From positions 2,376,777-2,440,776 of the forward strand of contig NZ_CP026003.1 in the NCBI RefSeq assembly GCF_003086795.1: DNA of 64,000 nucleotides, written 5' to 3'. The position numbers and the translations under genes were made by a program. The notes under the pieces are model-generated. The model was not told the origin of the DNA. It did no database searches and worked only from the letters and a program-made list of their open reading frames with translations. The stretch comes from Stenotrophomonas sp. SAU14A_NAIMI4_5 (GTDB lineage: Bacteria > Pseudomonadota > Gammaproteobacteria > Xanthomonadales > Xanthomonadaceae). Shown piece after piece: positions 23,525 to 39,958 of this stretch (positions are counted from its first letter, which is position 1; every line of letters starts with the position of its first letter).

Positions 23525-23551
23525 TGCATCCAATACGCACCGGTCTGCGTA
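23525..23551 (+). promoter_or_regulatory. Candidate ECF (ChrR-partner sigma) promoter for tspO
   Basis: TGCATCCAA (23525-23533), 13 nt, then GCGTA (23547-23551). The same two boxes with identical spacing precede the ECF sigma gene, its divergent neighbour and the desaturase gene. A start about 7 nt after the -10 gives a leader near 31 nt before the tspO ATG. Assignment to that sigma factor is inference from the shared motif. Confidence 0.7.
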
Positions 23552-23588
23552 GACCGGGTGCGATGGCAAACGTTCGAGAGGATCAGTG

Positions 23589-24074
23589 ATGAATCACAGA
23601 AGACAGATGGCCGGCCTGGTGGGTTCGCTGGCATTGACGCTCGCAGCAGCGGCGCTGGGTGCGCGCGCCTCGATCACCGCCGCGCAGTTCTACGGGCAGC
23701 TGGTCCAGCCCAGCTGGGCGCCGCCGGCCAATGTCTTTGGACCGGTCTGGACACTCTTATATGTATTGATGGCGCTCAGCGCCTGGCTGGTCTGGCGCCA
23801 GGGCGGTTGGCGCAGCAATCGGACCGCGCTCGGACTGTACGTCGCGCAACTGGTCGTCAACGTGCTCTGGAGCTGGCTGTTCTTCGCATGGAAGCTCGGC
23901 GGTGCGGCGTTCGCCGACATCCTGCTGTTGCTGGTACTGATCGTAGCCACGATGCTGGCCTTCGCCCGTCGCAGGGCCTTGGCGGCGTGGCTGCTGCTGC
24001 CCTACCTGGCCTGGGTCAGCTTCGCCACCGCACTCAACCATTCGGTCTGGCAGCTCAATCCTTCGGTGCTGTGA
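23589..24074 (+). CDS. tspO: TspO/MBR tryptophan-rich sensory protein
   Basis: This 161-residue protein with five predicted transmembrane helices belongs to the TspO/peripheral benzodiazepine receptor family, which binds and degrades or moves porphyrins. Family signatures are FYGQLVQPSWAPPANVFGPV with the following WTLLYVLMALSAWLVW, then LYVAQLVVNVLWSWLFFAWK and the final LPYLAWVSFATALNHSVWQL and NPS. GAGAGGATCAGTG precedes the ATG. An overlapping GTG at 23586 is less likely to be used. The upstream motif suggests control by the ECF sigma factor encoded 7.7 kb downstream. A bacteriophytochrome gene lies 600 bp further on. Both deal with tetrapyrroles, though in different ways. Confidence 0.93.
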   Translation: MNHRRQMAGLVGSLALTLAAAALGARASITAAQFYGQLVQPSWAPPANVFGPVWTLLYVLMALSAWLVWRQGGWRSNRTALGLYVAQLVVNVLWSWLFFAWKLGGAAFADILLLLVLIVATMLAFARRRALAAWLLLPYLAWVSFATALNHSVWQLNPSVL

Positions 24075-24081
24075 GCGGGGC

Positions 24082-24336
24082 TCAGGCGGCGGGTACGGCC
24101 GCCGCCCGCCACTGCCGCAGCGCGGCGCCAGTGAACGACTGCTGGCCACAGCCGGATGGGCAGCGGACCACGCGGGCCGACGAGGTGCTGACCAGGCCAG
24201 CGCCTTCCTCTGCCTTGAACACCGTCTCGCACGCCGTGCAGCGCGCCACCAGCGCATAGAGGTGGACGATGCGGCCGCTGCAGGGATCCTGCAGTGCACT
24301 GACGTCGAGCAGTTCGAAGTGGGCACTGTCCGCCAT
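24082..24336 (-). CDS. Small zinc-ribbon-like hypothetical protein
   Basis: This is an 84-residue protein (MADSAHFELLDVSAL) with two cysteine pairs, ARCTACETVF and VRCPSGCGQQ, which could bind one zinc ion. No enzyme motif is seen. I use the ATG at 24336. An in-frame ATG at 24450 would add 38 residues rich in Arg and Pro that look non-coding. The gene is convergent with tspO, with only 7 bp between stop codons. A similar small protein with paired cysteines is at 55627-55926. The function is unknown. Confidence 0.65.
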   Translation of the reverse strand: MADSAHFELLDVSALQDPCSGRIVHLYALVARCTACETVFKAEEGAGLVSTSSARVVRCPSGCGQQSFTGAALRQWRAAAVPAA

Positions 24337-24674
24337 CGGCCGACGCGGGAAGGAAGGATGACGATCGAAGGAAGGAATGGAAGGCTGCAGGTTCACGCGG
24401 CGTCGCCATGAGGGGAGTGGCTTTACTGTATGCAGCCGCGCGTGCAGCAAGCGTGCAGTGCCGATGCAGCTGCTGCGAAGGCGCGCTGTGCCTTCACCCG
24501 AAGTTTGCTGAATTGTTCAGCGTTTCAACCCTGAGTCTTCACATTAAAGAGTGGTATGCGAATCACGGTTTTTGCTTCACCATGTAGCGATGGCTTTTTC
24601 TTCCGACTCAGACTTGCGTCGTGGCGTGCAATCCGGCGCTGCCAACCTGCCCCGAACCGCGAGCGCTGCTGCTG
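24337..24674. other. Intergenic region ahead of the bacteriophytochrome operon
   Basis: These 338 bp hold the divergent promoters of the zinc-ribbon gene and bphP. The part from 24500 to 24600 is clearly richer in A+T than its surroundings. Apart from the inverted repeat at 24507-24521 I see no gene, terminator or ECF-type motif. Confidence 0.6.
24507..24521. promoter_or_regulatory. Perfect inverted repeat upstream of bphP
   Basis: GCTGAA-TTG-TTCAGC is a perfect 6-3-6 inverted repeat in the A+T-rich part of the intergenic region, about 150 bp before the bacteriophytochrome gene. It could be an operator. No regulator is identified. Confidence 0.35.
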
Positions 24675-26912
24675 ATGTCATCTGCTGAAACCGCGCAGGA
24701 CGCCGCGCTGGACCTCTGCGCGCGTGAGCCCATCCACACGCCGGGTGCCATCCAGCCGTACGGCGTGCTGCTGGTGGTCGACCCGCACTCGCTGCAGGTC
24801 CTCGAGCGCGCGGTGAGCGAGCCAGCCCTGCTTGAACGCTTCGGCGACCCGCTGGGACAGTCGCTGGCCGACGTGCTGGGCGGCGCGCTGGCGGGCTGCA
24901 TCGAGCCGGTCGGCCAGGTGGCCATGGACAGTTCGGTGCACCTCGGCTCCATCGAGCTGCCGGACTACGGGCGGCATCAGGTGCTGGCCCATCGCTCGCC
25001 GCAGGCGCTGCTGCTGGAGCTCGAATCACCGGTTGTGGGCCAGCCGACCTCGCTGGAAGCCCTGTATCCCGCCATCCGCCAACTGATGGCGGCCATCGAG
25101 ACCGCCAGCACGGTCGAGGCGCTGTGCCAGATCGCCGCCGAGCACATGCGCGCGATGACCGGCTTCGACCGCACCCTGGTCTATCAGTTCGACAGCGGCT
25201 GGAATGGCATCGTCATTGCCGAGGATGGCAATGGGGTGCTTCCCTCCTATCTCGACCTGCGCTTCCCCGAGTCGGACATCCCGGCGCAGGCGCGCGAACT
25301 GTACCGCCGCAACCGTGTGCGCCTGATCGCCGATGCCAACTACAGCGCGGTGCCGCTGGTGCGCGCTGCGCAGCATGCCGATGCGGCGCCGACCGACCTG
25401 AGCCTGTCGGTGCTGCGCAGCGTCTCGCCGGTGCACCTGCAGTACATGCGCAACATGGGTACCGGCTCGTCGATGTCGGTGTCACTGATCCACGAAGGCC
25501 AGCTGTGGGGTCTGGTGTCCTGCCACAGCGCGGATGCCCGGCGCCTGCCCTACCCGGTGCGCACCGCCTGTGAGTTCATGGGCCAGATCGTCTCGCTGCA
25601 GATTGCCCTGAAGGAACGGGCCCGTGCGGTGGAAGAACGCATCAACCGCCGCTCGGTGCTGGTCCGGCTGCTGGGGCGCATGGCCGGTGACGAAGAGTTC
25701 ATGGCCGCGCTGCGCCAGGATCCGGCCAGCCTGATGTCGCTGACCAATGCCGCCGGCGCTGCGATCGTGCACAAGGGCGACTGCCTGCTGGTCGGGCACT
25801 GCCCCGCCCGCAACGAGGTGCTGGACATCGCCCATTGGCTGGCCAGCGAGCACGCCGGCGACGAGGTCTATGCCACCGATCACCTGGCCAGCAGCTGGCC
25901 TGCGGGCGAAGCCCTGACCGAGACCGCGAGCGGCCTGCTGGCGGTCTCGATCTCCCAGCTGCACGACAGTTTCCTGATGTGGTTCCGCCCCGAAGTGGTG
26001 CGCACCGTGCGCTGGGGCGGCGACCCGCGCAAGACCGCGGCGCCGGGAACGGTGCTGTCACCACGCAATTCCTTCGAAGCCTGGAAGGAAACCGTGCAGC
26101 AGCGCAGCCTGCCGTGGAGCGATGCCGACCGCGATGCCGCGCACGAAATGCGCACCGCCATCGTCGACATCGTGCTGCGCAAGGCCGAGGAGATGGCCGA
26201 ACTCAACGAGCAGCTCCTGCGCAGCAACAAGGAGCTGGAGGCGTTCTCGTACTCGGTCAGCCATGACCTGCGCGCGCCGTTCCGGCATATCGTCGGCTAC
26301 TCCGAGCTGCTTGGCAGTTCCGCCGCCGAGCGCCTGAACGCTACCGAGCGCCGCTTCCTGGACACTATCGTCGAGTCGGCCAAGTCGGCCGGCACGCTGG
26401 TCGATGACCTGCTGAGCTTCTCGCAGATGGGCCGCTCGACACTGGGCCGCATGCGCTTGGACATGGGCGCCCTGGTCAGCGATGTGCGCCGCACCCTGGC
26501 CTTCGACTATGCCGGGCGCGAGGTCGAGTGGAAGGTCGGCGCACTACCGGTCATCGAGGCCGACCCGACGATGATGCGACTGGTCTGGCAGAACCTGCTG
26601 TCCAACGCCGTCAAGTTCACCCGCGAACGCGAGCACGCCGTCATCGAGATCGGCTGTGAACGCACCGACGAGGAGAACGTCTTCTTTGTCCGCGACAACG
26701 GCTGCGGCTTCGACATGCGTTACGTTGACAAGCTGTTCGGCGTGTTCCAGCGTCTGCACCACGTCGAGGAATTCGAAGGCACCGGCATCGGCCTGGCCAA
26801 TGTCCGCCGCATCGTCGGCCGCCATGGCGGCCGCACCTGGGCCGAGGGCGCGCTGGGCAAGGGCGCCACGCTTTACTTCACCCTGCCCCATCAAAACGGA
26901 GAACACCCATGA
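24675..26912 (+). CDS. bphP: Bacteriophytochrome histidine kinase (PAS-GAF-PHY-HK)
   Basis: This 745-residue red/far-red photoreceptor kinase has all the photosensory modules. The biliverdin-binding cysteine is Cys15 in LCAREPIHTPGAIQPYG. In the GAF domain the chromophore-pocket Asp201 lies in LRFPESDIPAQ, with His254 in SPVHLQYMRNMG and His284 in SCHSA. The PHY tongue carries a PRxSF motif (PRNSF, about 463-467). The kinase acceptor is His530 in SYSVSHDLRAPF, followed by NAVKFT, DNGCGF and GTGIGL boxes. The pocket reads IQPYG where most family members have IQPHG. I start at the ATG at 24675, which puts the Cys at the usual position. A GTG at 24621 is possible. No heme oxygenase gene is adjacent. 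Confidence 0.94.
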   Translation: MSSAETAQDAALDLCAREPIHTPGAIQPYGVLLVVDPHSLQVLERAVSEPALLERFGDPLGQSLADVLGGALAGCIEPVGQVAMDSSVHLGSIELPDYGRHQVLAHRSPQALLLELESPVVGQPTSLEALYPAIRQLMAAIETASTVEALCQIAAEHMRAMTGFDRTLVYQFDSGWNGIVIAEDGNGVLPSYLDLRFPESDIPAQARELYRRNRVRLIADANYSAVPLVRAAQHADAAPTDLSLSVLRSVSPVHLQYMRNMGTGSSMSVSLIHEGQLWGLVSCHSADARRLPYPVRTACEFMGQIVSLQIALKERARAVEERINRRSVLVRLLGRMAGDEEFMAALRQDPASLMSLTNAAGAAIVHKGDCLLVGHCPARNEVLDIAHWLASEHAGDEVYATDHLASSWPAGEALTETASGLLAVSISQLHDSFLMWFRPEVVRTVRWGGDPRKTAAPGTVLSPRNSFEAWKETVQQRSLPWSDADRDAAHEMRTAIVDIVLRKAEEMAELNEQLLRSNKELEAFSYSVSHDLRAPFRHIVGYSELLGSSAAERLNATERRFLDTIVESAKSAGTLVDDLLSFSQMGRSTLGRMRLDMGALVSDVRRTLAFDYAGREVEWKVGALPVIEADPTMMRLVWQNLLSNAVKFTREREHAVIEIGCERTDEENVFFVRDNGCGFDMRYVDKLFGVFQRLHHVEEFEGTGIGLANVRRIVGRHGGRTWAEGALGKGATLYFTLPHQNGEHP

Positions 26913-27376
26913 GGGATCTGCGGCCCATCCTTCTGGTTGAAGACAGCCCCAAGGATGCCGAGCTGACGATGGCAGCACTGGCACGCTGCCAGCTGCTGAA
27001 CGACGTCATCCATGTGCGCGACGGTGCCGAAGCACTGGACTACCTGCGCTGTGAAGGCGCCTATGCCGGTACGCAGCATGGTGGCCCGGTGGTGGTCCTG
27101 CTCGACCTGAAACTGCCCAAGATCAATGGCCTGGAAGTGCTGGAACAGGTGCGCAACGACGCGACGCTGAGCAGCACGCCGATCGTCATGCTCACCTCGT
27201 CGCGCGAGGAGCAGGACCTGGTGCGCAGCTATCAGCTGGGCGTCAACGCCTTCGTGGTCAAGCCGGTGGACTTCAAGGAGTTCTTCGACGCCATCCAGGG
27301 CCTTGGCATGTTCTGGGGCATCACCAACCAGCCGCCACCGCACCCGTCGGTCGGAACAGGCCCCCGCGATGCGTGA
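26909..27376 (+). CDS. Single-domain response regulator (Rcp1-like)
   Basis: This 155-residue lone receiver domain is of the type paired with phytochromes. Acidic residues are in LLVEDSPKDAE, the phospho-acceptor is Asp66 in VVVLLDLKLPKINGLE, the switch residue is in MLTSSREEQD, and the conserved lysine is Lys118 in FVVKPVDFKEF. It overlaps bphP by 4 nt (ATGA), so the kinase and regulator are translationally coupled. It should accept phosphate from the phytochrome and pass it on or bind a partner, since it lacks an output domain. Confidence 0.92.
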   Translation: MRDLRPILLVEDSPKDAELTMAALARCQLLNDVIHVRDGAEALDYLRCEGAYAGTQHGGPVVVLLDLKLPKINGLEVLEQVRNDATLSSTPIVMLTSSREEQDLVRSYQLGVNAFVVKPVDFKEFFDAIQGLGMFWGITNQPPPHPSVGTGPRDA

Positions 27377-29774
27377 TGCCGCGCGCCGTGCTTCGCACCT
27401 GCGCATCCTCATGCTGGAGGACAGCGCGCTCGATGCGGAGCTGATCACGGCGCAACTGCAGCGGGGCGGGCTGGATTTCGAGATCGATCGCCTGTGGACC
27501 CGCGACGCCTTCATCAACGCGATCGAGAGCGATCGTTTCGACGTCATCCTGGCCGACCACGTGCTGCCAGGCTTTGACGGCGATGCCGCGCTCGACCTCG
27601 CGCGCGAGCGCGCGCCGCACATCCCCTTCATCTTCGTTTCCGGCACCCTGACCGAAGAACTGGCGGTGCAGGCGCTGACCCGTGGCGCGCGTGACTATGT
27701 GGTCAAGCAGCGCCTGCAGCGCCTGCCCGACGCGATCCGTCGCGCGCGCCAGGAAGCCAGCGAGCGCAACCAGCTGACCCAGGCCCGCGCGGCGCTGGAC
27801 GAAAGCCAGGCTCAGCTGCAGCAGATCACCGATGCCGTGCCGGCGCTGATCGCCCACCTCGGCACCGACCACCGCTACCGCTTCGCCAACAAGGCGTTCC
27901 TCGACTGGCACGGCACCGACCTGCAGAGCATCCTCGGCCGGACCGCCGCGGACGTTGGCGGCGAGGAGGCCTTCACCAACGCCCTGCCCAGCCTGCAGCG
28001 GGTACTGGCTGGCGAACGCGCCAGCTTCCAGGTCACCCTGGTGCACCGCAGTGGCGAGTCGCGCTTCCTGCAGATGGACTGCGTGCCCGAGCGTGCCGCC
28101 GATGGCAACGTCACCGGCTACACGTGCCTGGGCAGCGATGTGTCCTCACTGAAGCGCGCCGAACTGGCGCTGCGCGAGGACAACGAATCATTGGAACGGC
28201 AGGTGCAGGCGCGTACCGCCGAACTGCAGGCCAGCAAGCGGCGCCTGCAGGCCATCTTTGAATCCAGCTTCCAGCACCAGGTGCTGCTGGACCGCAGCGG
28301 CCGCATTGTCGATGCCAATGTCGCCTCGCTCGCCGCGGTACTGGCCGAGAAGGACGATGTCATCGACCTGCCGTTCTGGGAATCGCCGTGGTTTGCCGCG
28401 ACGCCCGGGCTGGCCGGCGTCGTCGACCAGGCGGTGGCCGATGCCGCGCGCGGCCGCAGTGCGGTGCAGGCGATGGACCTTGAACTGCCCACCGGTCGCC
28501 GCAGCTTTGATTTCACCTTCCGCCCGCTGCAGGGTGCCGAGGGCACGGTGACCGCCGTGGTCTCCGAGGCCGTGGAAACCACCGCCCGCATCCAGGCCGA
28601 GCACGCGCTGAGGCAGGCACAGAAGATCGAGGCGGTGGGCCAGCTCACCGGTGGCATCGCCCATGACTTCAACAACATCCTGACCGTGATCGCCGGCAAC
28701 GTCGAGCACGCGATGCTGCTGAACCAGCGTGACGGCCAGCCCGGCAACATGAGTGCGCGTGCGCTGGACAACGCCTTGAAGGGCGTCGGCCGAGCGGCCA
28801 GCCTGACCCAACGGCTGCTTGCGTTTGCGCGCAAGCAGCCGCTGCGCAGCCAGGCGGTCAACCTCAACGACGCGCTGCTGGGCATGCATGACATGCTGCA
28901 GCGGGCACTGGGCGAACTGGTCCAGCTGGACATCCGCACCGGCGAAAGCATCTGGTGCGTCGAACTCGACGTCAGCCAGCTCGAGGCTTCGGTGCTGAAC
29001 CTGGCAGTGAACGCGCGCGACGCGATGTCCGGTGGCGGGCGCCTGGTGGTGGAGGTCGACAACAGTCACCTCGACCATGACTATGCCGCGCTGTTCCCGG
29101 ACGCGACGCCGGGCGAATACGTGATGCTGCGCGTGCGCGACAACGGCCACGGCATGTCCGCCGATACGATGGCCAAGGTGTTCGAGCCCTTCTTCACCAC
29201 CAAGCAGGTAGGCCGCGGCACCGGCTTGGGCCTGTCGATGGTGCACGGCTTCGTCAAGCAGTCCGGCGGCCACGTCCTCATCGATTCGGTGGAAGGCGGC
29301 GGCACCAGCATCACCATGATGTTCCCGCGCTCCATGCTGGACCTGCCCTGCGAGACCGCCGTGGCGGCCACCGGCCTGGCCGGTTACGAGCCGCGCGAAG
29401 AAACGATCCTGGTGGCCGAGGACAACGACGACGTGCGCGCCTACACCGTCGAGTCGCTGCGCCAGCTGGGCTACCGCGTGCTGGAAGCGCACGATGGCCC
29501 GTCCGCGCTGCGCCTGCTGGAGCGTCCGGATGCGAAGATCGACCTGCTGTTCTCCGACGTGGTGATGCCGGGGATGTCAGGCTGGGCGCTGGGCCGTGAA
29601 GTGCGCGAACGCTGGCCGGAGGTCGCCGTGCTGTTTACCTCGGGCTATCCGCGCGACCACGATGCCGCCGGCAGCAAGGGCCGTTCGGCACCCCTGCTGT
29701 CGAAGCCGTTCACCCGCAGCGACCTGGCCGAGTCGATCATCAGCGTGCTGAAGGATCGCGCGCCAGCGCGTTGA
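27369..29774 (+). CDS. REC-PAS-PAS-histidine kinase-REC hybrid of the phytochrome operon
   Basis: This 801-residue soluble hybrid kinase overlaps the preceding regulator by 8 nt. The order is an N-terminal receiver (about 10-130, ILADHVLPGFDG and YVVKQRL), two PAS-like modules (about 150-270 and 290-410) joined by a helical linker, HisKA ([19 protein letters not shown]), HATPase ([25 protein letters not shown]) and a C-terminal receiver (LLFSDVVMPGMSG). It probably integrates the light signal with a second input through PAS and continues the phosphorelay. No DNA-binding or cyclase output is encoded here, so the final target is unknown. Its 3' end overlaps the convergent SDR gene by 35 bp. Confidence 0.9.
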   Translation: MRDAARRASHLRILMLEDSALDAELITAQLQRGGLDFEIDRLWTRDAFINAIESDRFDVILADHVLPGFDGDAALDLARERAPHIPFIFVSGTLTEELAVQALTRGARDYVVKQRLQRLPDAIRRARQEASERNQLTQARAALDESQAQLQQITDAVPALIAHLGTDHRYRFANKAFLDWHGTDLQSILGRTAADVGGEEAFTNALPSLQRVLAGERASFQVTLVHRSGESRFLQMDCVPERAADGNVTGYTCLGSDVSSLKRAELALREDNESLERQVQARTAELQASKRRLQAIFESSFQHQVLLDRSGRIVDANVASLAAVLAEKDDVIDLPFWESPWFAATPGLAGVVDQAVADAARGRSAVQAMDLELPTGRRSFDFTFRPLQGAEGTVTAVVSEAVETTARIQAEHALRQAQKIEAVGQLTGGIAHDFNNILTVIAGNVEHAMLLNQRDGQPGNMSARALDNALKGVGRAASLTQRLLAFARKQPLRSQAVNLNDALLGMHDMLQRALGELVQLDIRTGESIWCVELDVSQLEASVLNLAVNARDAMSGGGRLVVEVDNSHLDHDYAALFPDATPGEYVMLRVRDNGHGMSADTMAKVFEPFFTTKQVGRGTGLGLSMVHGFVKQSGGHVLIDSVEGGGTSITMMFPRSMLDLPCETAVAATGLAGYEPREETILVAEDNDDVRAYTVESLRQLGYRVLEAHDGPSALRLLERPDAKIDLLFSDVVMPGMSGWALGREVRERWPEVAVLFTSGYPRDHDAAGSKGRSAPLLSKPFTRSDLAESIISVLKDRAPAR

Positions 29775-30426
29775 TCTGCGCGCATTCCACGACCGCCGGC
29801 GGTAACGGCACCCGGGCCAGCGCGATCATCGCCTGGCCGATGCGACGGTTGCTGGTGGTCAGCGCCGGGAGCAGCCCCTCGGCCACCGCCATCAGCGGGC
29901 GGGCCAGCAGATAGAACGGCTTGAGCAGCGTGTGTCGCGTGCCGGTGCCGGATACCGGGCGCACGCCGGCCGGTCGCAGCATCACCGTGCGCACCGGCAG
30001 GTCGGCAAGCGCCTGCTCGGTCTCGCCCTTGACCCGCAGCGGCATGATCCGGCTGTCCGGGTTGGCGTGCGCGCCTGACACATAAAGGAAGCATCCCTCA
30101 GGATTCGCCGCCGCCCAGGCTGAAGCCACGGTGCGGGTCACCTGCAGCGTGACCTGCCGGTACTCGGGCTCGGCCGTGCCCACCGGTGGTGCGCCCGCAC
30201 AATAGAAACAGGCGTCGAATCCAGCGAGCGCATCGCCCAGGGTGGCGGCTCGCTGGAAGTCCGCCAGTACGATCTCATCAACGTTGCCCGGCACGCTGCC
30301 GGGCCGGCGCACCAGTGCGGCGACGTGGCCGACATCCGCGGACTGCAGGCAGGCCTGCAGCACGCCCTGCCCGACCAACCCGGTGGCGCCCACCAGCAGC
30401 ACCCGCATTGCATTGCCATTGCCCAT
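29740..30426 (-). CDS. NAD(P)-binding SDR/NmrA-like protein in the sigma-chrR operon
   Basis: This 228-residue atypical SDR has the dinucleotide motif VLLVGATGLVGQGVL and downstream FYCAGAPPVG and LYVSGAHANP. It lacks an obvious YxxxK pair, as do many NmrA/HSCARG-like redox sensors and nucleoside-diphosphate-sugar epimerase relatives. GGAGG lies 8 nt before the ATG. It begins 19 bp after the chrR stop and is the third gene of the sigma-chrR transcription unit. An SDR gene is commonly found in RpoE-ChrR-associated clusters of proteobacteria. Its role there is not settled. Confidence 0.83.
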   Translation of the reverse strand: MGNGNAMRVLLVGATGLVGQGVLQACLQSADVGHVAALVRRPGSVPGNVDEIVLADFQRAATLGDALAGFDACFYCAGAPPVGTAEPEYRQVTLQVTRTVASAWAAANPEGCFLYVSGAHANPDSRIMPLRVKGETEQALADLPVRTVMLRPAGVRPVSGTGTRHTLLKPFYLLARPLMAVAEGLLPALTTSNRRIGQAMIALARVPLPPAVVECAQINALARDPSAR

Positions 30427-30445
30427 CGGGCTTTCCTCCAGCGTT

Positions 30446-31129
30446 CTAGAGCTTTACGAACCGCTGGATCTTGCGCGCCAGCCAACCGCTGAACACCAGC
30501 GGCGCATCCAACGCCGATACGCAGATGCAGGGCACGCCCGGTGCGGTGACCGGCTGGTGCTCCACGTCTTCGTCCAGATCAGCCACATCGCCTGGCGCGA
30601 ACAGACCCAGCGCATCATTGTAGGCGCCGCGCAGGATATGGGTGAGCTCGCTGCGGCCGTGGCTGTGCATCGGCAGGCACTTGCCCGGCGCGATCTTGAG
30701 CATGATCAACGAGGGCATTTCCGCGGAGCGGATGCAGTGCACGCCCGGTGCGATCCAGCGCCAGCGCAGCGCAGCCAGCGAGCGACCGAAGTACGGGTGC
30801 AGGGACGCCGGCAGATGGTCCGCACTCACCTCCGGCCGCTCCACCGGCGGCGCGGCCGGCCGCGCGACGGCAATGGCAGCCACCGCTGGCTCGTCACGCT
30901 CCAGCTCGGCCAGCATGGCCGCACGCAGCGCCTGGCTGCGGCCGCCAACCACCATCGGCTGGGTCTGTTCGATCAGCGCCGCGCCGATGGCCTCGGCCTC
31001 GCGCAGGCGCTGGCGGCAATGCGGGCACTGCTCCAGGTGGGTGCCGGCGACCACGCTCAGCGGCGCCGGCAACGCGCCGGCCGCATAGCTGAGCAGGGTC
31101 GATTCATGCAGGTGGTGGTGCGGGCTCAT
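30446..31129 (-). CDS. chrR: ChrR-type zinc anti-sigma factor with cupin domain
   Basis: This 227-residue anti-sigma factor holds its ECF sigma partner inactive until singlet oxygen or organic peroxide triggers its destruction. The N-terminal anti-sigma domain has zinc ligands His6, His31, Cys35 and Cys38 (THLEQCPHC), the same positions as in Rhodobacter sphaeroides ChrR. The C-terminal cupin (about 115-225) keeps its own zinc ligands His155, His157, Glu161 (MHSHGRSELTHIL) and His191. It overlaps the sigma gene by 4 nt. The residue-for-residue agreement supports the same singlet-oxygen-sensing type. Confidence 0.93.
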   Translation of the reverse strand: MSPHHHLHESTLLSYAAGALPAPLSVVAGTHLEQCPHCRQRLREAEAIGAALIEQTQPMVVGGRSQALRAAMLAELERDEPAVAAIAVARPAAPPVERPEVSADHLPASLHPYFGRSLAALRWRWIAPGVHCIRSAEMPSLIMLKIAPGKCLPMHSHGRSELTHILRGAYNDALGLFAPGDVADLDEDVEHQPVTAPGVPCICVSALDAPLVFSGWLARKIQRFVKL

Positions 31130-31749
31130 GGCATGCCCCCCACCTTCGACTGCAGCTGCAGGAAGGCCCGCCGCAGGTGTGATTTCACCGTGCCCAGCGG
31201 CATGCCCAGCGCCTCGGAGATCTCGCCGTGGCTCTTGGCCTCGAAATAGGACATGCGCACCAGCCGCGCCTGCACTGCGGGCAGCTCGTTGATGCGCTGG
31301 CGCAGGCGCGCCTGGTCGGCATAGTGCTCGGCGCTGCTGTGAGACTGCGCGTCGCCGCTGGCAGCTTCCTCCACCGCGGCCTGCACCTGCATCCAGCTGC
31401 GCTCATGGCGCACCCGGTCGATCTGCAGGTTGCGCGCGATCCGGTACAGCCAGGTGCTCAGCGCACCCTGCGCCGCATCGTAGTCGGCCGCGCGCAGCCA
31501 CAGCCGCAGCAGGCATTCCTGCGCAAGCTCCTCGGCCACCGCTTCGGGCGCGCCGAGCCCGCGCAGGTAAACACACAGGCGTGGCATGAAGTGGTCGTAG
31601 ATGCGCATGAAACAGCTGCGGTCGCGCAGGCGCGCCACACCGTCCATGTCACCGGTCCAGTTCGTCGGCTCGCTGCTTGGCTGCTGGGAACTGGACACGA
31701 TGCGTGCGGCGTCGAAGTCAAAGGAAGGGCTGGCGGCGTCAGGGTACAT
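31126..31749 (-). CDS. ECF RNA polymerase sigma factor (ECF11/ChrR-associated)
   Basis: This 207-residue sigma-70 family ECF factor has region 2 at about residues 50-120 (FMPRLCVYLRGLG, AEELAQECLLRLW, STWLYRIARNLQIDRVRHE). Region 4 is at about 150-205 (LPAVQARLVRMSYFEAKSHG, EISEALGMPLGTVKSHLRRA). A 45-residue N-terminal extension precedes region 2. It is translationally coupled to chrR, so it is held inactive by that anti-sigma factor. A copy of the motif TGCATCCAA-N13-GCGTA, reading towards this gene, lies at 31790-31816, which indicates autoregulation. It should not be confused with the envelope-stress RpoE. Confidence 0.93.
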   Translation of the reverse strand: MYPDAASPSFDFDAARIVSSSQQPSSEPTNWTGDMDGVARLRDRSCFMRIYDHFMPRLCVYLRGLGAPEAVAEELAQECLLRLWLRAADYDAAQGALSTWLYRIARNLQIDRVRHERSWMQVQAAVEEAASGDAQSHSSAEHYADQARLRQRINELPAVQARLVRMSYFEAKSHGEISEALGMPLGTVKSHLRRAFLQLQSKVGGMP

Positions 31750-31789
31750 CCGGGCGGCGATCAGGCAGGTGAAGGGAGTCTGTGTGCTG

Positions 31790-31816
31790 TACGCACCAGA
31801 GGCGGGTTTGGATGCA
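31790..31816 (-). promoter_or_regulatory. Candidate autoregulated ECF promoter of the sigma-chrR operon
   Basis: On the minus strand, TGCATCCAA (31816-31808), 13 nt, GCGTA (31794-31790). A start about 7 nt downstream leaves a leader near 34 nt before the sigma ATG. The sequence and spacing equal those of the other three copies. Confidence 0.75.
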
Positions 31817-31827
31817 GCGCACCGCCC

Positions 31828-31854
31828 TGCATCCAGCCGGGCCTGTGGTGCGTA
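31828..31854 (+). promoter_or_regulatory. Candidate ECF promoter of the divergent lipid-gene cluster
   Basis: TGCATCCAG (31828-31836), 13 nt, GCGTA (31850-31854). It is back-to-back with the sigma promoter, 11 bp apart, and gives a leader of about 24 nt before the ATG at 31885. Confidence 0.72.
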
Positions 31855-31884
31855 TGTTCAGCAGGCCAACCTGCCAGGACCCCC

Positions 31885-32652
31885 ATGCATACCGCCGGGC
31901 TGCTGCTGTACCTGTCCACCGTGGCCAGCGCCACGCCCCTGCTGCGCAGCGAAGGCGTTGCCAGCCTGGCCGACGGCACCCCCGCCTACCGCGAGGTGCA
32001 CTGGCGGCGCGGGGCGCCCGAAGGTGCGGCGCGCTGGGTGCAGTACCTGTGCCCGGACGGTCGCCCGTTCGCACGCAAGGAGCTGCCGGGCACCGCCCAG
32101 CCGCAGGCGCGGGGCTACCTGCTGCAGGACGGACGCAGCGGCCAGGCCGCCAGAGTGGTGGTGGCCGGCGGAAAGGTCAGCATCGACTGGAAGGAAAGCG
32201 CGCCCGACGCGGAACGGCGTGCGCAGGTGCCACTGCCTGCCGACGCGGTGATCGACACCGGATTCGACGCCGCAGTGCGCGCGCACTGGCCTGCACTGAT
32301 GAAGGGCGATGAGGTCCGCCTGCCTTTTCTGGTGCCGGGCCGGCAGCGCTTCTACCCGGTCAGCGTGCGCCGTACCGGTGCGCTCACCTGGCAGGGTGCA
32401 CCCGCACAGGCCATCGAGGCGCGCCTGGCCACCTGGTACGGCGCGGTCGCTCCGCGGCTGTCCCTGGTCTACGCCGATGATGACCGCCGCCTGCTGGAAT
32501 TTCGCGGCACCAGCAACCTGCGTGATGGCCATGGCGCCTATCCGGCCGTCATTGTCCGCTTCGCCTCACCCGCGACGACGCAGCCACAGGCGCAGTGGCA
32601 GCAGGCCTGGGCACAACCGCTGGTGGCGTCCTGCGGCGTGAGCAGCAGGTGA
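31885..32652 (+). CDS. Periplasmic hypothetical protein of the ECF regulon
   Basis: This 255-residue protein has a short Sec signal peptide (MHTAGLLLYLSTVASA, cleavage after ASA). The mature part is predicted mostly beta (WVQYLCPDGRPFARKELPG, VSIDWKESAPDAERRAQVPL). It contains no motif I can assign to an enzyme. The start ATG follows CCAGGACCCCC and is preceded by a candidate ECF promoter. It is divergent from the sigma gene and 84 bp ahead of the desaturase, which has its own copy of the motif. Expression under singlet-oxygen or peroxide stress is therefore likely. Confidence 0.75.
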   Translation: MHTAGLLLYLSTVASATPLLRSEGVASLADGTPAYREVHWRRGAPEGAARWVQYLCPDGRPFARKELPGTAQPQARGYLLQDGRSGQAARVVVAGGKVSIDWKESAPDAERRAQVPLPADAVIDTGFDAAVRAHWPALMKGDEVRLPFLVPGRQRFYPVSVRRTGALTWQGAPAQAIEARLATWYGAVAPRLSLVYADDDRRLLEFRGTSNLRDGHGAYPAVIVRFASPATTQPQAQWQQAWAQPLVASCGVSSR

Positions 32653-32676
32653 AGCTGTCACGCAATGCCGATTGAG

Positions 32677-32703
32677 TGCATCCAATCCACGCCGTGCTGC
32701 GTA
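32677..32703 (+). promoter_or_regulatory. Candidate ECF promoter of the desaturase-led operon
   Basis: TGCATCCAA (32677-32685), 13 nt, GCGTA (32699-32703). A start about 7 nt downstream lies after the possible ATGs at 32665 and 32707, so translation should begin at the ATG at 32737. Confidence 0.72.
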
Positions 32704-32736: not shown

Positions 32737-33690
32737 ATGTCCGCTGCTGCGCCCCTTCCACGCCGACGTGAGCGACTGCTGCGCACCCTGCGACGCTGGT
32801 TCGATACCGAGGCCGCCGCGGCGCAGGCCGATCCGGCGCAGCGCGGCCGCATCGACTGGCTGCGGGCCGTGCCCTTCGTCCTGCTGCATGTGGCGTGCCT
32901 GGGGGTGATCTGGGTCGGCGTGTCCTGGACCGCGGTAGCGGTCGCGCTCGCGCTGTACGCGGTGCGGATGTTCGCGATCACCGGCTTCTACCATCGCTAT
33001 TTTTCGCACCGCACCTTCCAGGCCTCGCGCCCGGTGCAGTTCATCTTCGCGGTGATCGGTGCGTCCAGTGTGCAGCGTGGCCCCTTGTGGTGGGCCGCCC
33101 ACCACCGCCATCACCACCGCCATGCCGACCAGCCGCAGGACCCGCATTCGCCCAATGAGGGCGGGTTCTGGCGCAGCCACATGGGCTGGTTCCTGACCCG
33201 CGAAGCCTTTGCCACGGATCTGGCGCGCGTGCCCGACCTGGCCCGTTTCCCTGAACTGCGCTGGCTGGACCGCTTCGACATCGCCGTACCAGTATTACTG
33301 GCCGCGGGCCTGTACGGCCTCGGCGCGCTGCTGGAGCGCATGGCACCCGGCCTGCACACGACGGGCCCGCAGCTGCTGGTCTGGGGCTTCTTCATCTCCA
33401 CTGTGGTGCTGTTCCATGCCACGGTCACCATCAATTCGCTGGCCCACCGCTTCGGCAGCCGCCGCTTCGAGACGCGCGATGACAGCCGCAACAACCTGTG
33501 GCTGGCCCTGCTGACCTTCGGCGAAGGCTGGCACAACAACCACCATTTCTTCCCCGGCACCGCCCGCCAGGGCTTCCGCTGGTGGGAAGTGGACCTGACC
33601 TGGTACGGCCTGCGCCTGATGGCCGCCGTCGGCCTGGTCAGCGGACTGAAGCCGATACCCGAGTGGGTGCTGGCCAAGGCGAAGGACTGA
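32737..33690 (+). CDS. Membrane fatty acid desaturase (acyl-CoA delta-9 type)
   Basis: This 317-residue di-iron membrane desaturase inserts a double bond in fatty acyl chains. The three histidine boxes are present: HRYFSHRTFQ, HHRHHHRHAD and the C-terminal EGWHNNHHFFP. Hydrophobic segments flank them (FVLLHVACLGVIWVGVSW; LLVWGFFISTVVLFHATVTI). I set the start at 32737 because the promoter boxes end at 32703, which excludes earlier in-frame ATGs. It heads an eight-gene block of lipid enzymes reaching 39958, with mostly overlapping or very short junctions. Unsaturated chains are the substrates for the CFA-type methyltransferases downstream. Confidence 0.9.
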   Translation: MSAAAPLPRRRERLLRTLRRWFDTEAAAAQADPAQRGRIDWLRAVPFVLLHVACLGVIWVGVSWTAVAVALALYAVRMFAITGFYHRYFSHRTFQASRPVQFIFAVIGASSVQRGPLWWAAHHRHHHRHADQPQDPHSPNEGGFWRSHMGWFLTREAFATDLARVPDLARFPELRWLDRFDIAVPVLLAAGLYGLGALLERMAPGLHTTGPQLLVWGFFISTVVLFHATVTINSLAHRFGSRRFETRDDSRNNLWLALLTFGEGWHNNHHFFPGTARQGFRWWEVDLTWYGLRLMAAVGLVSGLKPIPEWVLAKAKD

Positions 33691-33692
33691 GC

Positions 33693-34970
33693 ATGCGCAT
33701 CGCGGTCATCGGTTCGGGCATTGCAGGGCTGGCCAGTGCGTACTGGCTGGACGGCGAGCACGAAGTCACCCTGTATGAAGCCAACGACTATCTGGGCGGG
33801 CACACCCACACCCATCGGGTGCAGGTCGACGGCCAGCAGATGTCGGTCGACACCGGCTTCATCGTCTTCAATCCGCAGCACTATCCGCTGCTGACGGCCC
33901 TGTTCGACGAGCTGGGCGTGGCGTCACAGCCCACCACCATGAGCTTCTCGATGCACAGCGACCGCAGTGGCGTGGAGTACAACGCCACCTCGCTGGACGG
34001 CCTGTTCTGCCAGCGCCGCAACCTGGTCTCGCCGCGCTTCTGGGGCATGCTGGCCGACCTGCGCCGCTTCTATCGGGATGCGCCGCTGCTGCTGGCCGAG
34101 GCCGAAGGCCCGACGCTGGGACAGTATCTGCGCCAGCAGCGCTTCGGCGATGCCTTCGTGGAGGAACACCTGTTGCCGATGGCCTCGGCGCTGTGGTCAT
34201 CGCCGACCGCCACCGTGCTGGACTTCCCGGCGCGCTACCTGGTGCAGTTCATGGCCAATCACCAGATGCTGCAGATGACCGGTCGCCCGCCGTGGCGGGT
34301 GGTCAAGGGCGGCTCGGCGCGATATGTCGAGGCGCTGCGCGGCCGCTGGCGCGTGCATGAGCGGCTGGAAACGCCGGTGCAGGCGGTCGAGCGCATGCCG
34401 TGGGGCGCGCGCGTGCACAGCTCGGCCGGTATTGAAGGCTTCGACGAGGTGATCCTGGCCTGCCACAGCGACCAGGCCCTTGCCCTGCTGGCAGACGCCG
34501 ATCCGGTTGAAAGCGCCGTGCTGGGCGCGATCCGCTACCAGGCCAATGAGGCCGTGCTGCACACCGATGCCTCGCTCCTGCCCGCCAACCGCAAGGCCTG
34601 GGCCGCCTGGAACGCACACGTACCGGAAGATCCTTCGGCGCCCTGCACGGTCAGCTACTGCATGAACCTGCTGCAGGGCCTGCCCGGCGGGACGCCGTTG
34701 GTGGTGACCCTCAACCGCAGTGATGCCATCGATCCGTCCAAGGTGCTGCGCCGCCTGCACTATGCGCACCCCGTGCACGACCATGCCGCCGTGCGGGCAC
34801 AGCAGCGCTGGGGCGAGATCCAGGGCCACCGCCACACCTGGTTCGCCGGTGCTTACTGGGGCTGGGGTTTCCACGAGGACGGCATTGCCAGCGCACGGCG
34901 CACGGTTGATGCGCTGCGCGCCCGCACCGGCATCGCGTCGCCGCTGCGGCCGACCGAGATCACGGCATGA
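33693..34970 (+). CDS. FAD-dependent amine-oxidase-like protein (lipid desaturase candidate)
   Basis: This 425-residue flavoprotein starts with the FAD motif RIAVIGSGIAGLASAYWL and EVTLYEANDYLGGHTHTH. The NAD(P)/flavin oxidase family hallmark continues with VDTGFIVFNPQHYP. The C-terminal AGAYWGWGFHEDGIASA closes the FAD site. Homologues occur next to cfa in ChrR-sigma clusters. In Rhodobacter, proteins of this kind take part in furan fatty acid formation, acting on methylated acyl chains. The same role here is inferred from context. It begins 3 bp after the desaturase stop and overlaps the DUF1365 gene by 4 nt. Confidence 0.88.
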   Translation: MRIAVIGSGIAGLASAYWLDGEHEVTLYEANDYLGGHTHTHRVQVDGQQMSVDTGFIVFNPQHYPLLTALFDELGVASQPTTMSFSMHSDRSGVEYNATSLDGLFCQRRNLVSPRFWGMLADLRRFYRDAPLLLAEAEGPTLGQYLRQQRFGDAFVEEHLLPMASALWSSPTATVLDFPARYLVQFMANHQMLQMTGRPPWRVVKGGSARYVEALRGRWRVHERLETPVQAVERMPWGARVHSSAGIEGFDEVILACHSDQALALLADADPVESAVLGAIRYQANEAVLHTDASLLPANRKAWAAWNAHVPEDPSAPCTVSYCMNLLQGLPGGTPLVVTLNRSDAIDPSKVLRRLHYAHPVHDHAAVRAQQRWGEIQGHRHTWFAGAYWGWGFHEDGIASARRTVDALRARTGIASPLRPTEITA

Positions 34971-35734
34971 CCGCCAGTGCGCTCTATGTCGGGCAGGTGC
35001 AGCACCGCCGGCACCATCCGCATGCGCACGCATTCCGCTACCCGGTGGCGCAGCTGCTGCTGGATCTGGACGAGCTGGACACGATCTTCGCCGGGCGCTG
35101 GCTGTGGTCGGTCAACCGACGCAACCTGGCCGAGTTCCGCCGCAGCGACTACCTGGGCGATGCGAAGGTGCCACTGGCCGATGCCGTGCGCGACCATGCC
35201 GCCACCGTGCTGGGCCGTCGCCCGGAAGGACCCGTGCGGCTGCTGACCCACCTGCGTTTTGGCGGCCACGTGTTCAACCCGGTCAGCTTCTACTACTGCT
35301 ACCAGGCCGACGGCAGCACCCTGGACTGCATCGTCGCCGACATCACCAATACTCCGTGGAAGGAACGCCACGCCTACGTACTGCCGGTCGAGCAGGCGCA
35401 GCACGAAGGTGGCAGCCTGCGCTGGCAGTTCGACAAGTGCTTCCACGTGTCGCCCTTCATGCCGATGGACTGCCGCTACGACTGGCGCTTCAACGCTCCC
35501 GGCGATGCGCTGCGCGTGCACATGCAGGTCTGGCGCGAGGGCGTGCGCCAGTTCGATGCGACCCAGTCCATGCAGCGCCATCCGCTGGACGGCCGCGGCC
35601 TGGCGCGGGTGCTGCTGGGCTACCCGCTGATGACCGTGCAGGTGGTCGCCGCCATCCACTGGCAGGCGCTGCGCCTGTGGCTGAAACGCAACCCCGTGCA
35701 CGACCACCCTTCCCTTGCCGAGAAACCGCGATGA
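34967..35734 (+). CDS. DUF1365 family protein
   Basis: This is a 255-residue DUF1365 protein. Family features are the start SALYVGQVQHRRHHPHAHAF, RRSDYLGD, LLTHLRFGGHVFNPVSFYYC and HVSPFMPMDCRYDW. No signal peptide is present; a short hydrophobic patch near the C-terminus (MTVQVVAAIHWQALRLWL) may contact the membrane. The biochemical role is not established, but the family is almost always located between the amine-oxidase-like gene and cfa. ATGA overlaps on both sides indicate strict co-translation with those two enzymes, so the three probably act together on membrane lipids. Confidence 0.9.
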   Translation: MTASALYVGQVQHRRHHPHAHAFRYPVAQLLLDLDELDTIFAGRWLWSVNRRNLAEFRRSDYLGDAKVPLADAVRDHAATVLGRRPEGPVRLLTHLRFGGHVFNPVSFYYCYQADGSTLDCIVADITNTPWKERHAYVLPVEQAQHEGGSLRWQFDKCFHVSPFMPMDCRYDWRFNAPGDALRVHMQVWREGVRQFDATQSMQRHPLDGRGLARVLLGYPLMTVQVVAAIHWQALRLWLKRNPVHDHPSLAEKPR

Positions 35735-36990
35735 ACAATCTGACGCCTTCGGTGGCCCTGCCCCGTGCCGGTGCACTGGACGCCTTCCTGCGCCGTCGCC
35801 TGCTGGCCCAGCTGGCCCCGATGCACGACGGCCAGCTGCGCGTACGCGATGCCTTCGGCGAGGTGCTGCTGGGCGATGGCCAGGGCCCGCTGCAGGCCAC
35901 GGTGACCATCGACGACCCGGCCTTCTACCGCAAGGTGGCCGCGCAGGGCAGCGTCGGCGCCGGCGAAAGCTACATCCACGGCGACTGGCGCTGCGATGAC
36001 CTGGTGGCGCTGGTCCGCCTGCTGGTGCGCAACCGCGATCTGCTGGACGGCATGGAGCGCGGCCCGGCACGCGCCGCCGGCTGGCTGCTGCGCGGCTGGA
36101 ACCGCCTGCGCCGCAACAGCCGCGAGGGCAGCCGCCGCAACATTGCCGCCCACTACGACCTCGGCAATGATTTCTTCGCGCTGTTCCTGTCGCCGGACCT
36201 GATGTATTCCTCGGCGCTGTACGCACAGGCGGACGAGCCGCTGGAAGTGGCCTCGACCCGCAAGCTGGACCGCATCTGCGAGCAGCTGCAGCTGCAGCCG
36301 GGCGACCGCGTGGTCGAGATCGGCACCGGCTGGGGCGGCTTTGCCGTGCATGCGGCACGCCATTACGGCTGCCACGTCACCACCACCACCATTTCCGCCG
36401 AACAGCACGCACTGGCCGTGCAGCGCGTGCAGGACGCGGGTCTGCAGGAGCGCGTGACCGTGCTGATGCAGGACTACCGCGACCTGCAGGGCCAGTTCGA
36501 CAAGCTGGTCTCCATCGAGATGATCGAGGCCATCGGCGCCGAGTTCCTCGATACCTACATGGGCACCCTGCAGCGCCTGCTGAAACCCGATGGCGTGGCC
36601 CTGCTGCAGGCGATCACCATCGAAGACCACCGCTACGAACAGGCCCGGCGCAGCGTCGACTACATCAAGCGCTTCGTGTTCCCGGGCAGCTTCATTCCTT
36701 CGATCAACGCGATCATGGCGGCCAAGACCCGGGCCAGCGACCTGCAGCTGATCGCCCAGCAGGACTTCGGCCATTCCTACGCGCTCACCCTGCGCGCCTG
36801 GCGCCAGCGTTTCCTGGCCCAGCGCGCCGCCGTGCAGGCACAGGGGTTCGACGAGCGCTTCTGCCGCTTGTGGGAGTTCTACCTGGCCTACTGCGAGGGT
36901 GGCTTCCTGGAGCGCTCCATCGGCGTGTCGCACCTGCTGCTGGCGCGGCCGGGCCATTGCACCGACGTCCCCACCGGCCGCGAGGCCTGA
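35731..36990 (+). CDS. cfa: Cyclopropane-fatty-acyl-phospholipid synthase
   Basis: This 419-residue enzyme adds a methylene from SAM across double bonds of phospholipid acyl chains. The N-terminal region (about 1-120) has DPAFYRKVAAQGSVGAGESY and IHGDW. The SAM-binding core starts with NIAAHYDLGNDFFALFLSPD, LMYSSALY, and VVEIGTGWGGFAVHAA. Further motifs are TTTISAEQHALA, KLVSIEMIEAIG and DYIKRFVFPGSFIPS. These match E. coli Cfa in order. It overlaps DUF1365 by 4 nt. A second CFA-like methyltransferase lies at 38339, so the operon has two related enzymes that probably differ in reaction. Confidence 0.94.
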   Translation: MNNLTPSVALPRAGALDAFLRRRLLAQLAPMHDGQLRVRDAFGEVLLGDGQGPLQATVTIDDPAFYRKVAAQGSVGAGESYIHGDWRCDDLVALVRLLVRNRDLLDGMERGPARAAGWLLRGWNRLRRNSREGSRRNIAAHYDLGNDFFALFLSPDLMYSSALYAQADEPLEVASTRKLDRICEQLQLQPGDRVVEIGTGWGGFAVHAARHYGCHVTTTTISAEQHALAVQRVQDAGLQERVTVLMQDYRDLQGQFDKLVSIEMIEAIGAEFLDTYMGTLQRLLKPDGVALLQAITIEDHRYEQARRSVDYIKRFVFPGSFIPSINAIMAAKTRASDLQLIAQQDFGHSYALTLRAWRQRFLAQRAAVQAQGFDERFCRLWEFYLAYCEGGFLERSIGVSHLLLARPGHCTDVPTGREA

Positions 36991-37005: not shown

Positions 37006-37554
37006 ATGAAACGGACCTGGGCCAACCTGTTCGGCAACCAGCTGGTCTGGCTGTGCGCGGTGGCTGGCGCGGGCCGGGGCTGGCAATGGCCGGCACTGCT
37101 GGCCGCAGCGCTGCATGTCGCCAGCCAGCTGCTGACCAGCCCGGTGCCGCGCATTGACCTGCGCCTGCTGCTGCTCGCCCTCGCCTGCGCCTGGCTGGTG
37201 GATGGCATCGCCGCCGCCAGCGGCACCGTGCGCTATGCCGCCGCGCCGCTGGGCTGGGCACCGCCGCCGTGGATCATGGCGCTGTGGGCGGCGTTCGCGA
37301 TGACCCTGACCAGCTCGATGACCTTCCTGCAGCGGCACCGCCTGCTGCCGGTGCTGTTCGGCCTGCTGCTGGCACCGCTGGCCTATCTGTCGGCGGCGCG
37401 TGGCTTCCAGGCCGTGCAGTTTTACGCACCCGTGTGGCAGGGCGTCCTGCTGCTGGGGGTGGGCTGGAGCATCGCCCTGCCGCTGCTGTGCGCGCTGGCA
37501 CGCCGCGGCAATGGCAACGCAGCCGCAAGCACAGACAAAGGAGTACGCGCATGA
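37006..37554 (+). CDS. DUF2878 membrane protein
   Basis: This 182-residue protein has four or five predicted transmembrane helices and belongs to DUF2878. It begins MKRTWANLFGNQLVWLCAVA and includes LLLLALACAWLVDGIAAASG and PWIMALWAAFAMTLTSSMTF. GGGAGG lies 7 nt ahead of the ATG, and the gene follows cfa by 15 bp. DUF2878 is a regular member of ChrR-sigma lipid clusters but has no demonstrated function. It overlaps the DUF1295 gene by 4 nt. Confidence 0.85.
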   Translation: MKRTWANLFGNQLVWLCAVAGAGRGWQWPALLAAALHVASQLLTSPVPRIDLRLLLLALACAWLVDGIAAASGTVRYAAAPLGWAPPPWIMALWAAFAMTLTSSMTFLQRHRLLPVLFGLLLAPLAYLSAARGFQAVQFYAPVWQGVLLLGVGWSIALPLLCALARRGNGNAAASTDKGVRA

Positions 37555-39424: not shown

Positions 39425-39958
39425 ATGCGTATGCCCCCCTTGTTCACCCTGCTGACATTGGCCCTGTTCGGCACAGGCTGCAGCAGCCAGGACACCCGGC
39501 CACTGCCACGCGAAGCGTCGGTGGACGTGCCACGCTTCATGGGCGACTGGTACGTGATCGCCCACATTCCCTCCCGGCCGGAGCGCGAGGCTTTTGACGC
39601 CGTCGAGAGCTATTCCCTACGCCCGGATGGCCGCATCCAGACCACTTTCACCTACCGTAAGGGCAACTTCCAGGCGCCATACAAGAGCATGCACCCGGTC
39701 GGCCGGGTGGAAGAGGAAGGCGCCGGCGCGGTGTGGGGCATGCAGTTCATCTGGCCGATCCAGGCCGAGTACATCATCGCCTGGCTGGACGACGACTATC
39801 AGCAGACGATCGTCGGCCGCAGCAAGCGCGACTATGTCTGGTACATGGCGCGCACGCCGCAGGTGTCACCGCAGGAGTATCAGGCTGCGGTCGAGCGCAT
39901 CGCCGCGATGGGCTATGACACCTCGAAGCTGAGGAAGGTTCCGCAGTCCGTGCGTTGA
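39425..39958 (+). CDS. blc: Blc-type lipocalin lipoprotein
   Basis: This 177-residue protein has a lipoprotein signal peptide ending in ALFGTGC (Cys19 as lipidation site). A bacterial lipocalin barrel follows. The family motif GxW is in VPRFMGDWYVIAHIP. Other conserved strands are AVESYSLRPDGRIQTTFTYR, WPIQAEYIIAWLDDDYQQTI and YVWYMARTP. GGAGACTGGCG precedes the ATG. Lipocalins of this type bind fatty acids or lysophospholipids at the outer membrane. As the last gene of the lipid-modification operon it could carry or scavenge damaged or modified acyl chains. Confidence 0.9.
   Translation: MRMPPLFTLLTLALFGTGCSSQDTRPLPREASVDVPRFMGDWYVIAHIPSRPEREAFDAVESYSLRPDGRIQTTFTYRKGNFQAPYKSMHPVGRVEEEGAGAVWGMQFIWPIQAEYIIAWLDDDYQQTIVGRSKRDYVWYMARTPQVSPQEYQAAVERIAAMGYDTSKLRKVPQSVR

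Follow-up and report, generated by a model that had tools for sequence, protein, structure and literature searches.

Which regulator reads the two-box element that recurs ahead of genes for a sigma factor, a periplasmic protein, a fatty acid desaturase and TspO in Stenotrophomonas sp. SAU14A_NAIMI4_5, and is its reach confined to that locus? We analyzed a 64,000-nucleotide stretch of this genome (the window; C1:2376777-2440776 of 4,570,883 bases, the genome also being labelled G000), in which an earlier note had described four identical promoters defining a local regulon of an extracytoplasmic function (ECF) sigma factor and ChrR. We consider it very probable that the element is a promoter read by a single ECF11-type sigma factor, which is held inactive by the zinc anti-sigma factor ChrR and acts at six promoters. 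The core of this regulon is already published in a sister species. Our additions are the predicted inclusion of tspO, a predicted promoter inside the lipid gene cluster, a pair of copies with a shared -35 box, and a change of sigma module in relatives.

The two-box element in the window and the genome

The pattern TGCATCCR-N14-GCGTA, equivalent to the TGCATCCA(A/G)-N13-GCGTA of the earlier note, has exactly four matches in the window, and none of 100 dinucleotide shuffles held any copy. This confirms the four-copy observation in both place and strand. The description of the copies as identical holds for both boxes and their spacing but not for the spacer sequence, which is different in all four. 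The gap between the final A of GCGTA and the start codon is 34 (GTG) or 37 (ATG) nt for tspO, 40 for the sigma gene, 30 for the periplasmic gene and 33 for the desaturase gene; taking off 6-8 nt leaves leaders of about 22-34 nt, in line with the 24-34 nt first proposed. The copies, together with the genes that they precede, are as follows (ORF, open reading frame).

31790..31816, minus strand: predicted promoter of the sigma-chrR-chrA operon (exact motif)
31126..31749, minus strand: ECF sigma factor, RpoE/ECF11 type (Sigma70_r2 56.3 bits, r4_2 53.9 bits)
30446..31129, minus strand: ChrR anti-sigma factor (TIGR02451 158.8 bits, cut-off 124.5)
29740..30426, minus strand: NAD(P)-binding protein, chrA orthologue by position (PF13460 35.3 bits)
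31828..31854, plus strand: predicted promoter of the divergent periplasmic-protein gene (exact motif)
31885..32652, plus strand: predicted periplasmic protein, smlt2375 orthologue by position (ORF; no Pfam family matched)
32677..32703, plus strand: predicted second promoter, lying within the lipid cluster and upstream of the desaturase gene (exact motif)
32737..33690, plus strand: fatty acid desaturase (PF00487 88.2 bits)
33693..34970, plus strand: FAD amine-oxidase-type oxidoreductase (PF01593 66 bits)
34967..35734, plus strand: DUF1365 protein (PF07103 288.1 bits)
35731..36990, plus strand: cyclopropane synthase-type methyltransferase (PF02353 273.9 bits)
37006..37554, plus strand: DUF2878 protein (PF11086 110.8 bits)
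38339..39412, plus strand: second cyclopropane synthase-type methyltransferase (NF008686 146.6 bits, below the cut-off of 400)
39425..39958, plus strand: lipocalin, by position as smlt2367 and named by reading (ORF; nine-gene cluster smlt2375-2367)
23525..23551, plus strand: predicted ECF11-type promoter of tspO (exact motif)
23586..24074, plus strand: tspO, TspO/MBR family (PF03073 150 bits)

Is the element restricted to this locus? Across the whole genome (4.57 Mb) the exact motif has six matches and its reversed control none, and all six copies are upstream of gene starts. The earlier note had allowed that the motif might prove common genome-wide; the scan gave only these six. That note was right that no fifth copy is present in the window, but its local regulon stands only as a regulon, since one pair of the six promoters is about 94 kb away. 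Among the genes that it expected downstream, photolyase-related and lipid genes were found, but nothing peroxidase-like is directly behind the six promoters.

Relaxing the pattern added no candidates that we retained. The looser form GCATCCR-N15-CGTA has 16 genome matches (control 1), namely the six promoters and ten sites within predicted ORFs, which were chosen by a GC3 rule; the long form with one mismatch has ten (control 5), all likewise within predicted ORFs. Because of this placement, the ten looser and ten one-mismatch sites, two sets that partly overlap, were dropped as extra promoters. A genome search with up to two mismatches (241 matches, 163 in the control) was not used further. 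With up to three mismatches, the window gave 45 matches against a mean of 51.3 by chance, and hence only the tight form of the motif is informative. The classical ECF11 box, TGATCC-N16-CGTA, has five genome matches (control 0), of which three are inside predicted ORFs and two are in none (C1:699997, or L231:1501-1526, and C1:4216537, or L235:1501-1526).

The two exact copies outside the window stand back to back at C1:2306702-2306751 (L125:6703-6752) and face away from each other. One precedes a DPRP photolyase-related gene (PF04244 255 bits) and the other a DUF2256 gene; the DUF2256 scan was done on the copy from genome G039 (L122), to which the copy in this genome is 85% identical. The two -35 boxes overlap in a 10-base palindrome, GGATGCATCC, so that perhaps one polymerase at a time could use the site. 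The first ATG of the DUF2256 gene lies only 11 nt after CGTA, and its transcript may therefore be nearly leaderless.

How widespread is this arrangement? Allowing two mismatches, we found the 50-base layout with the shared -35 in 5 of 298 genomes, each of which matched with zero mismatches. When 73 genus genomes were searched for the photolyase-related gene, the same five (G000, G009, G020, G039 and G050) were the only carriers; 18 further genus genomes of the layout scan stood outside that gene search. Between the shared -35 and the photolyase-related gene, G020 has genes for a lipocalin and a membrane protein, and G050 has at least the one for a membrane protein; on the other side, both genomes have DUF2256 and then a chrA-like gene. 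At 22 distant photolyase-related loci (L191, L192 and L194-L213), no motif was found within -300 to +150 of the gene.

Genome G020 also gave several separate observations. Its photolyase-related gene (C1:426933-428464) matches in two pieces and seems broken in the assembly. The 252-residue membrane protein in the interval between its lipocalin and photolyase-related genes was considered as TspO-like; it has no Pfam match, and we make no such claim. An extra motif (L119:2089-2114) is found close to where an outer-membrane-like gene begins, with a fasciclin-like gene behind it, both named by reading.

The sigma factor, ChrR and the published regulon

The sigma gene and the anti-sigma gene that follows it fit the assignment first made for them. 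The sigma factor has both regions 2 and 4, and its best PDB match is 2Q1Z, RpoE of R. sphaeroides (E 8e-25). Among 50 loci found in named genomes, the closest sigma factor is that of Stenotrophomonas cyclobalanopsidis (L034), with 98% identity. The adjoining gene product scores above the TIGR02451 cut-off for ChrR and just reaches Cupin_7 (27.4 bits, cut-off 27), but falls below the narrower equivalog NF051881 (144.7 bits, cut-off 300). Its best solved match is R. sphaeroides ChrR (PDB 2Z2S, E 1.2e-33). Aligned with 2Z2S, it keeps the N-terminal H..C..C and the C-terminal cupin H, H, E and H, residues which we take to be the zinc ligands of ChrR.

Does the system belong to ECF11? We found the sigma type, an adjacent ChrR, the zinc-ligand residues and ATCC-N16-CGTA, including a copy ahead of the sigma gene itself. 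The core targets of the group are represented by motifs ahead of photolyase-related, oxidoreductase and cfa-type lipid units. The TGATCC -35 box of the group was not found at any of the six promoters, all of which have TGCATCC. A residue in sigma region 4.2 was considered as a possible partner of the TGCATCC box and left as a lead, since sigma factors from outside the group were too few.

The geometry that the earlier note had judged suitable for ECF promoters is indeed that of characterized ECF11 systems. RpoE2-ChrR of Shewanella oneidensis uses ATCC-N16-CGTA and has its own operon, photolyase and cfa among its targets, and the start sites of rpoE2 and pgpD have been mapped (Dai et al. 2015, PMC4336711). 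It differs in its -35 box, TGATCC (TGATCA in one listed promoter), and in targets that include glutathione peroxidase and ferrochelatase; tspO is not mentioned in the text available. PSPTO_1043/1042 of Pseudomonas syringae has the same ATCC-N16-CGTA spacing, with TGATCC-N16-CGTA at its own promoter, a phrB-cfa locus, and bphO-bphP genes at one of its target loci (Butcher et al. 2017, PMC5507510). It, too, differs in having TGATCC or a box near it, and the available text again makes no mention of tspO.

Expression evidence comes from S. maltophilia KJ (Ku et al. 2025, PMC11832516), where RNA sequencing was done once and six genes were followed by quantitative PCR. There, rpoEc-chrR-chrA and smlt2375-smlt2367 were up in a chrR mutant and reverted when rpoEc was also removed. 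The rises were 697-fold for smlt2375, 507-fold for smlt2374 and 45-fold for the sigma gene, and levels in the double mutant were at or below that of the wild type. The two-component genes smlt2382-2380 also rose in the chrR mutant, and a MEME box was reported ahead of rpoEc and smlt2375. The window shares with strain KJ the sigma-chrR-chrA operon, the divergent nine-gene lipid cluster, the downstream two-component genes and the autoregulation. As to singlet oxygen, the condition suggested in the earlier note for mapping 5' ends, the S. maltophilia study found a role in superoxide tolerance and no effect on singlet oxygen tolerance.

On one point the two pictures differ. The text on strain KJ takes the nine genes as one operon, whereas here a second promoter is predicted within the cluster, before the desaturase gene. 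Transcript values in the KJ chrR mutant, 744 at smlt2375 and 2088 at smlt2374 (PMC11832516), rise in a way that fits such a promoter.

How might the system work? ChrR would hold the sigma factor inactive and then release it, and the freed sigma factor with RNA polymerase would recognize GCATCC as the -35 box and CGTA as the -10 box, ATCC being separated from CGTA by 16 bases. Its targets would be its own operon, in a positive feedback, the divergent periplasmic gene, and the desaturase, oxidoreductase and cyclopropane-type lipid genes. Further targets would be tspO, perhaps with the sensor kinase genes behind it by read-through, and, outside the window, the photolyase-related and DUF2256 genes that share one -35. 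Each copy would thus act as a promoter in this strain, with tspO and the photolyase-related gene presumably expressed.

Conservation of the promoters and the case of tspO

To judge conservation, we used 41 named loci with both sigma and ChrR genes (L034-L074) and counted the looser motif where it fell between -150 and +30 relative to the start of the gene, leaving genes that were cut off or not found out of the denominators. The motif stood ahead of the sigma gene in 39 of 41 loci, the periplasmic gene in 28 of 30, the desaturase gene in 33 of 34 and tspO in all 20. Chance would give 0.0007 per 180-base stretch, as estimated from seven other matches in 1,850,164 strand-bases. The copy in front of the sigma gene, from which autoregulation had been expected, is therefore among the conserved ones. 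These loci are close relatives and not independent, though they still hold 18 to 37 distinct sequences per site.

Since the promoters were gathered by pattern, their fixed letters are fixed by construction, and we looked instead at the free positions. Among 120 promoters, position 1 is T in 88 and C in 32, position 23 is G in 70, and position 8, where A or G was allowed, is A in 110. The promoters collected from Xanthomonadales have TGCATCC or CGCATCC. At both divergent promoters, two alphaproteobacterial loci (L075, Acetobacteraceae; L078, Caulobacteraceae) have TGATCC-N16-CGTT or CGTA, and genome G089 (L148) has CAATCC. The two bases before ATCC thus vary between groups.

Of 73 genus genomes, 58 carry a sigma factor of the ChrR type or of a second, RskA type described below, and 56 of these 58 have the exact motif (mean 2.5). 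Two further occurrences are recorded here as such. G007, which has neither sigma, holds an exact copy at L128:3641-3666. In S. rhizophila-type genomes, a motif near the ChrR pair (L066:13087-13112; G046:C1:1489366) is at the start of a large ORF with, by reading, a GAF-type sensor-like beginning.

Is tspO truly part of the regulon? It is present in 32 of 73 genus genomes, 31 of which also have the ChrR-type sigma, itself present in 49 of the 73 (Fisher p 7e-7, relatedness not corrected). The motif lies upstream of tspO in 30 of these 31 genomes. It is not ahead of tspO in G070 (L179), the one tspO genome without the ChrR-type sigma, nor in five genomes of other families (G073, G080, G092, G104 and G116). 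The motif still precedes tspO at four loci (L036, L041, L043 and L048) where tspO closely follows the sigma operon and no kinase genes were found. Because the motif is retained ahead of tspO across genomes and at a changed distance of tspO from the sigma gene, we conclude that tspO is a predicted conserved member of the regulon. TspO has been connected with porphyrins, which are photosensitizers, and so a place for tspO in a response of this kind would make sense. In R. sphaeroides, tspO is described as RpoHII-dependent.

The genes behind tspO are these.

24082-24450, minus strand: small gene between tspO and the sensor kinase gene (protein matched in 22 loci)
24621..26912, plus strand: sensor histidine kinase of bacteriophytochrome type, named by reading (ORF; by position in smlt2382-2380)
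26909..27376, plus strand: response regulator of the kinase unit, named by reading (ORF; position as smlt2382-2380)
27303..29774, plus strand: hybrid sensor kinase of the kinase unit, named by reading, start uncertain (ORF; position as smlt2382-2380)

We looked for a motif upstream of the sensor kinase gene in the window and in 17 loci and found none; hence, we tentatively put the published rise of the kinase genes down to read-through from the tspO promoter or to an indirect effect. The small opposite-strand gene encodes a protein that is 57-99% identical in named loci, and some of its 22 loci are without the kinase gene.

A second sigma module and the competing explanations

Some genus genomes have the motif and no close relative of the sigma factor. 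In these, another ECF sigma factor, 32-35% identical, lies beside the same periplasmic gene, promoter and lipid operon. Its anti-sigma factor has the RskA C-terminal domain (PF10099, 73 bits, cut-off 29.4, in the one pair scanned, L127). The pair is in this respect like SigK-RskA (ECF18/ECF19, PMC7509140), but the sigma factor scanned from L127 is below the NCBIfam SigK cut-off (NF007228, 140.1 bits against 226). All 57 genus genomes found with the oxidoreductase have one of the two sigma types: a ChrR-type sigma is within 6 kb in 38, an RskA-type in 17, and the sigma gene is on another contig in two (G015 and G050); the 16 without the oxidoreductase comprise 15 with neither sigma and one (G025) with the ChrR type. 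Nine of the 17 RskA-type genomes also carry a ChrR-type sigma elsewhere. This pattern applies within the genus; elsewhere in the order, 35 genomes from other families also match the oxidoreductase, most without a close match to either sigma.

We examined 19 RskA loci (L120, L121, L126, L127 and L129-L143, the last from another family), one of which lacks the periplasmic gene and one the desaturase gene. Wherever present, both the periplasmic gene and the desaturase gene are preceded by the looser motif (18 of 18 each). At these loci the periplasmic gene starts the SigK-like/RskA operon, with the SigK-like gene inside it, and the motif was directly ahead of the SigK-like gene in none of the 19. 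By its position, the RskA-type sigma would read the same promoters.

Such loci bear on how firmly the element can be tied to ChrR. With the motif conserved at four sites, and with the orthologues of three of the four units sigma-dependent in S. maltophilia, the proposed ECF-sigma/ChrR regulon is supported; because relatives have the motif beside another sigma/anti-sigma pair, however, the motif alone does not name the sigma factor. Perhaps, then, another ECF sigma factor of this genome reads the promoters? The 17 genus genomes in which the same promoter and lipid operon adjoin the SigK-like/RskA pair lend this idea some substance. Yet a search of this genome for the SigK-like sigma did not turn up the pair and, at E <= 1e-20, matched the ChrR-type sigma alone (32% identical); one motif stands ahead of the ChrR-type sigma gene, and the S. 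maltophilia genes depend on the ChrR-bound sigma (Ku et al. 2025). We regard a different sigma factor as improbable. We give equally little credence to the element being the operator of a DNA-binding regulator. A strongly conserved two-box element at several genes, with a 10-base palindrome at one pair, could bind one, but neither box repeats the other, the copies at the sites counted are oriented toward their genes, the start-codon gap is 30-40 nt in the window, and the geometry equals that of ECF11 promoters with mapped starts. Recent duplication of a single promoter segment, which would leave the copies uninformative about a regulon, we find scarcely credible: the boxes are identical in the four copies, but most spacer positions vary among them, and the different species retain each copy in front of its own gene.

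Several observations weigh against a single ChrR-bound sigma factor acting at six promoters. The motif is missing ahead of the sigma gene in L060 and L067, the periplasmic gene in L067 and L068, the desaturase gene in L059, and tspO in G055 (L153), the sole miss of 31. One to three exact motifs are present in 5 of the 15 genus genomes without either sigma (mean 0.6 over the 15). None of the five classical boxes of the genome is at a regulon gene. None of the ten further looser matches is ahead of a gene, though the yce operon is a published regulon member in S. maltophilia (PMC11832516); the yce genes themselves were not looked up. Finally, tspO and a photolyase both go unnamed in the main text of Ku et al., although the 24-gene Table S2 may list either.

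Did the sigma modules change places while the promoters stayed? On a tree of 57 oxidoreductases (39 ChrR, 18 RskA), the sigma label changes four times, with at least three changes forced by well supported branches, and a single RskA clade is rejected (p-AU 1.1e-6); some deep branches of this tree are long, which calls for caution. At the 18 RskA loci, pairwise identities of the oxidoreductase and the SigK-like sigma correlate (r 0.97), and the RskA module is therefore not a recent arrival in each genome. Either an exchange of modules or loss from a two-module ancestor would be consistent with this. We lean toward the view that the promoter outlives the sensor: the same promoters and outputs would have been kept while the adjoining pair swapped between zinc ChrR and RskA-type systems at least three times. 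Our search of the open-access literature, as far as its texts were available, found no report of sigma-module exchange, of a shared -35, or of tspO under a ChrR-bound sigma.

These results outline a stress regulon in a genus that is both environmental and opportunistic, with six promoters in this genome and with tspO and the photolyase-related gene as predicted additions to the published lipid and sigma genes. If the promoter does outlive the sensor, the output genes would have been rewired to a different stress input with the promoter unchanged, and the nine genomes with both sigma factors would run the operon from two inputs. The same promoters and outputs beside two unlike sensor modules in one genus constitute a natural experiment, one that bears on how promoter specificity persists upon sigma factor replacement.

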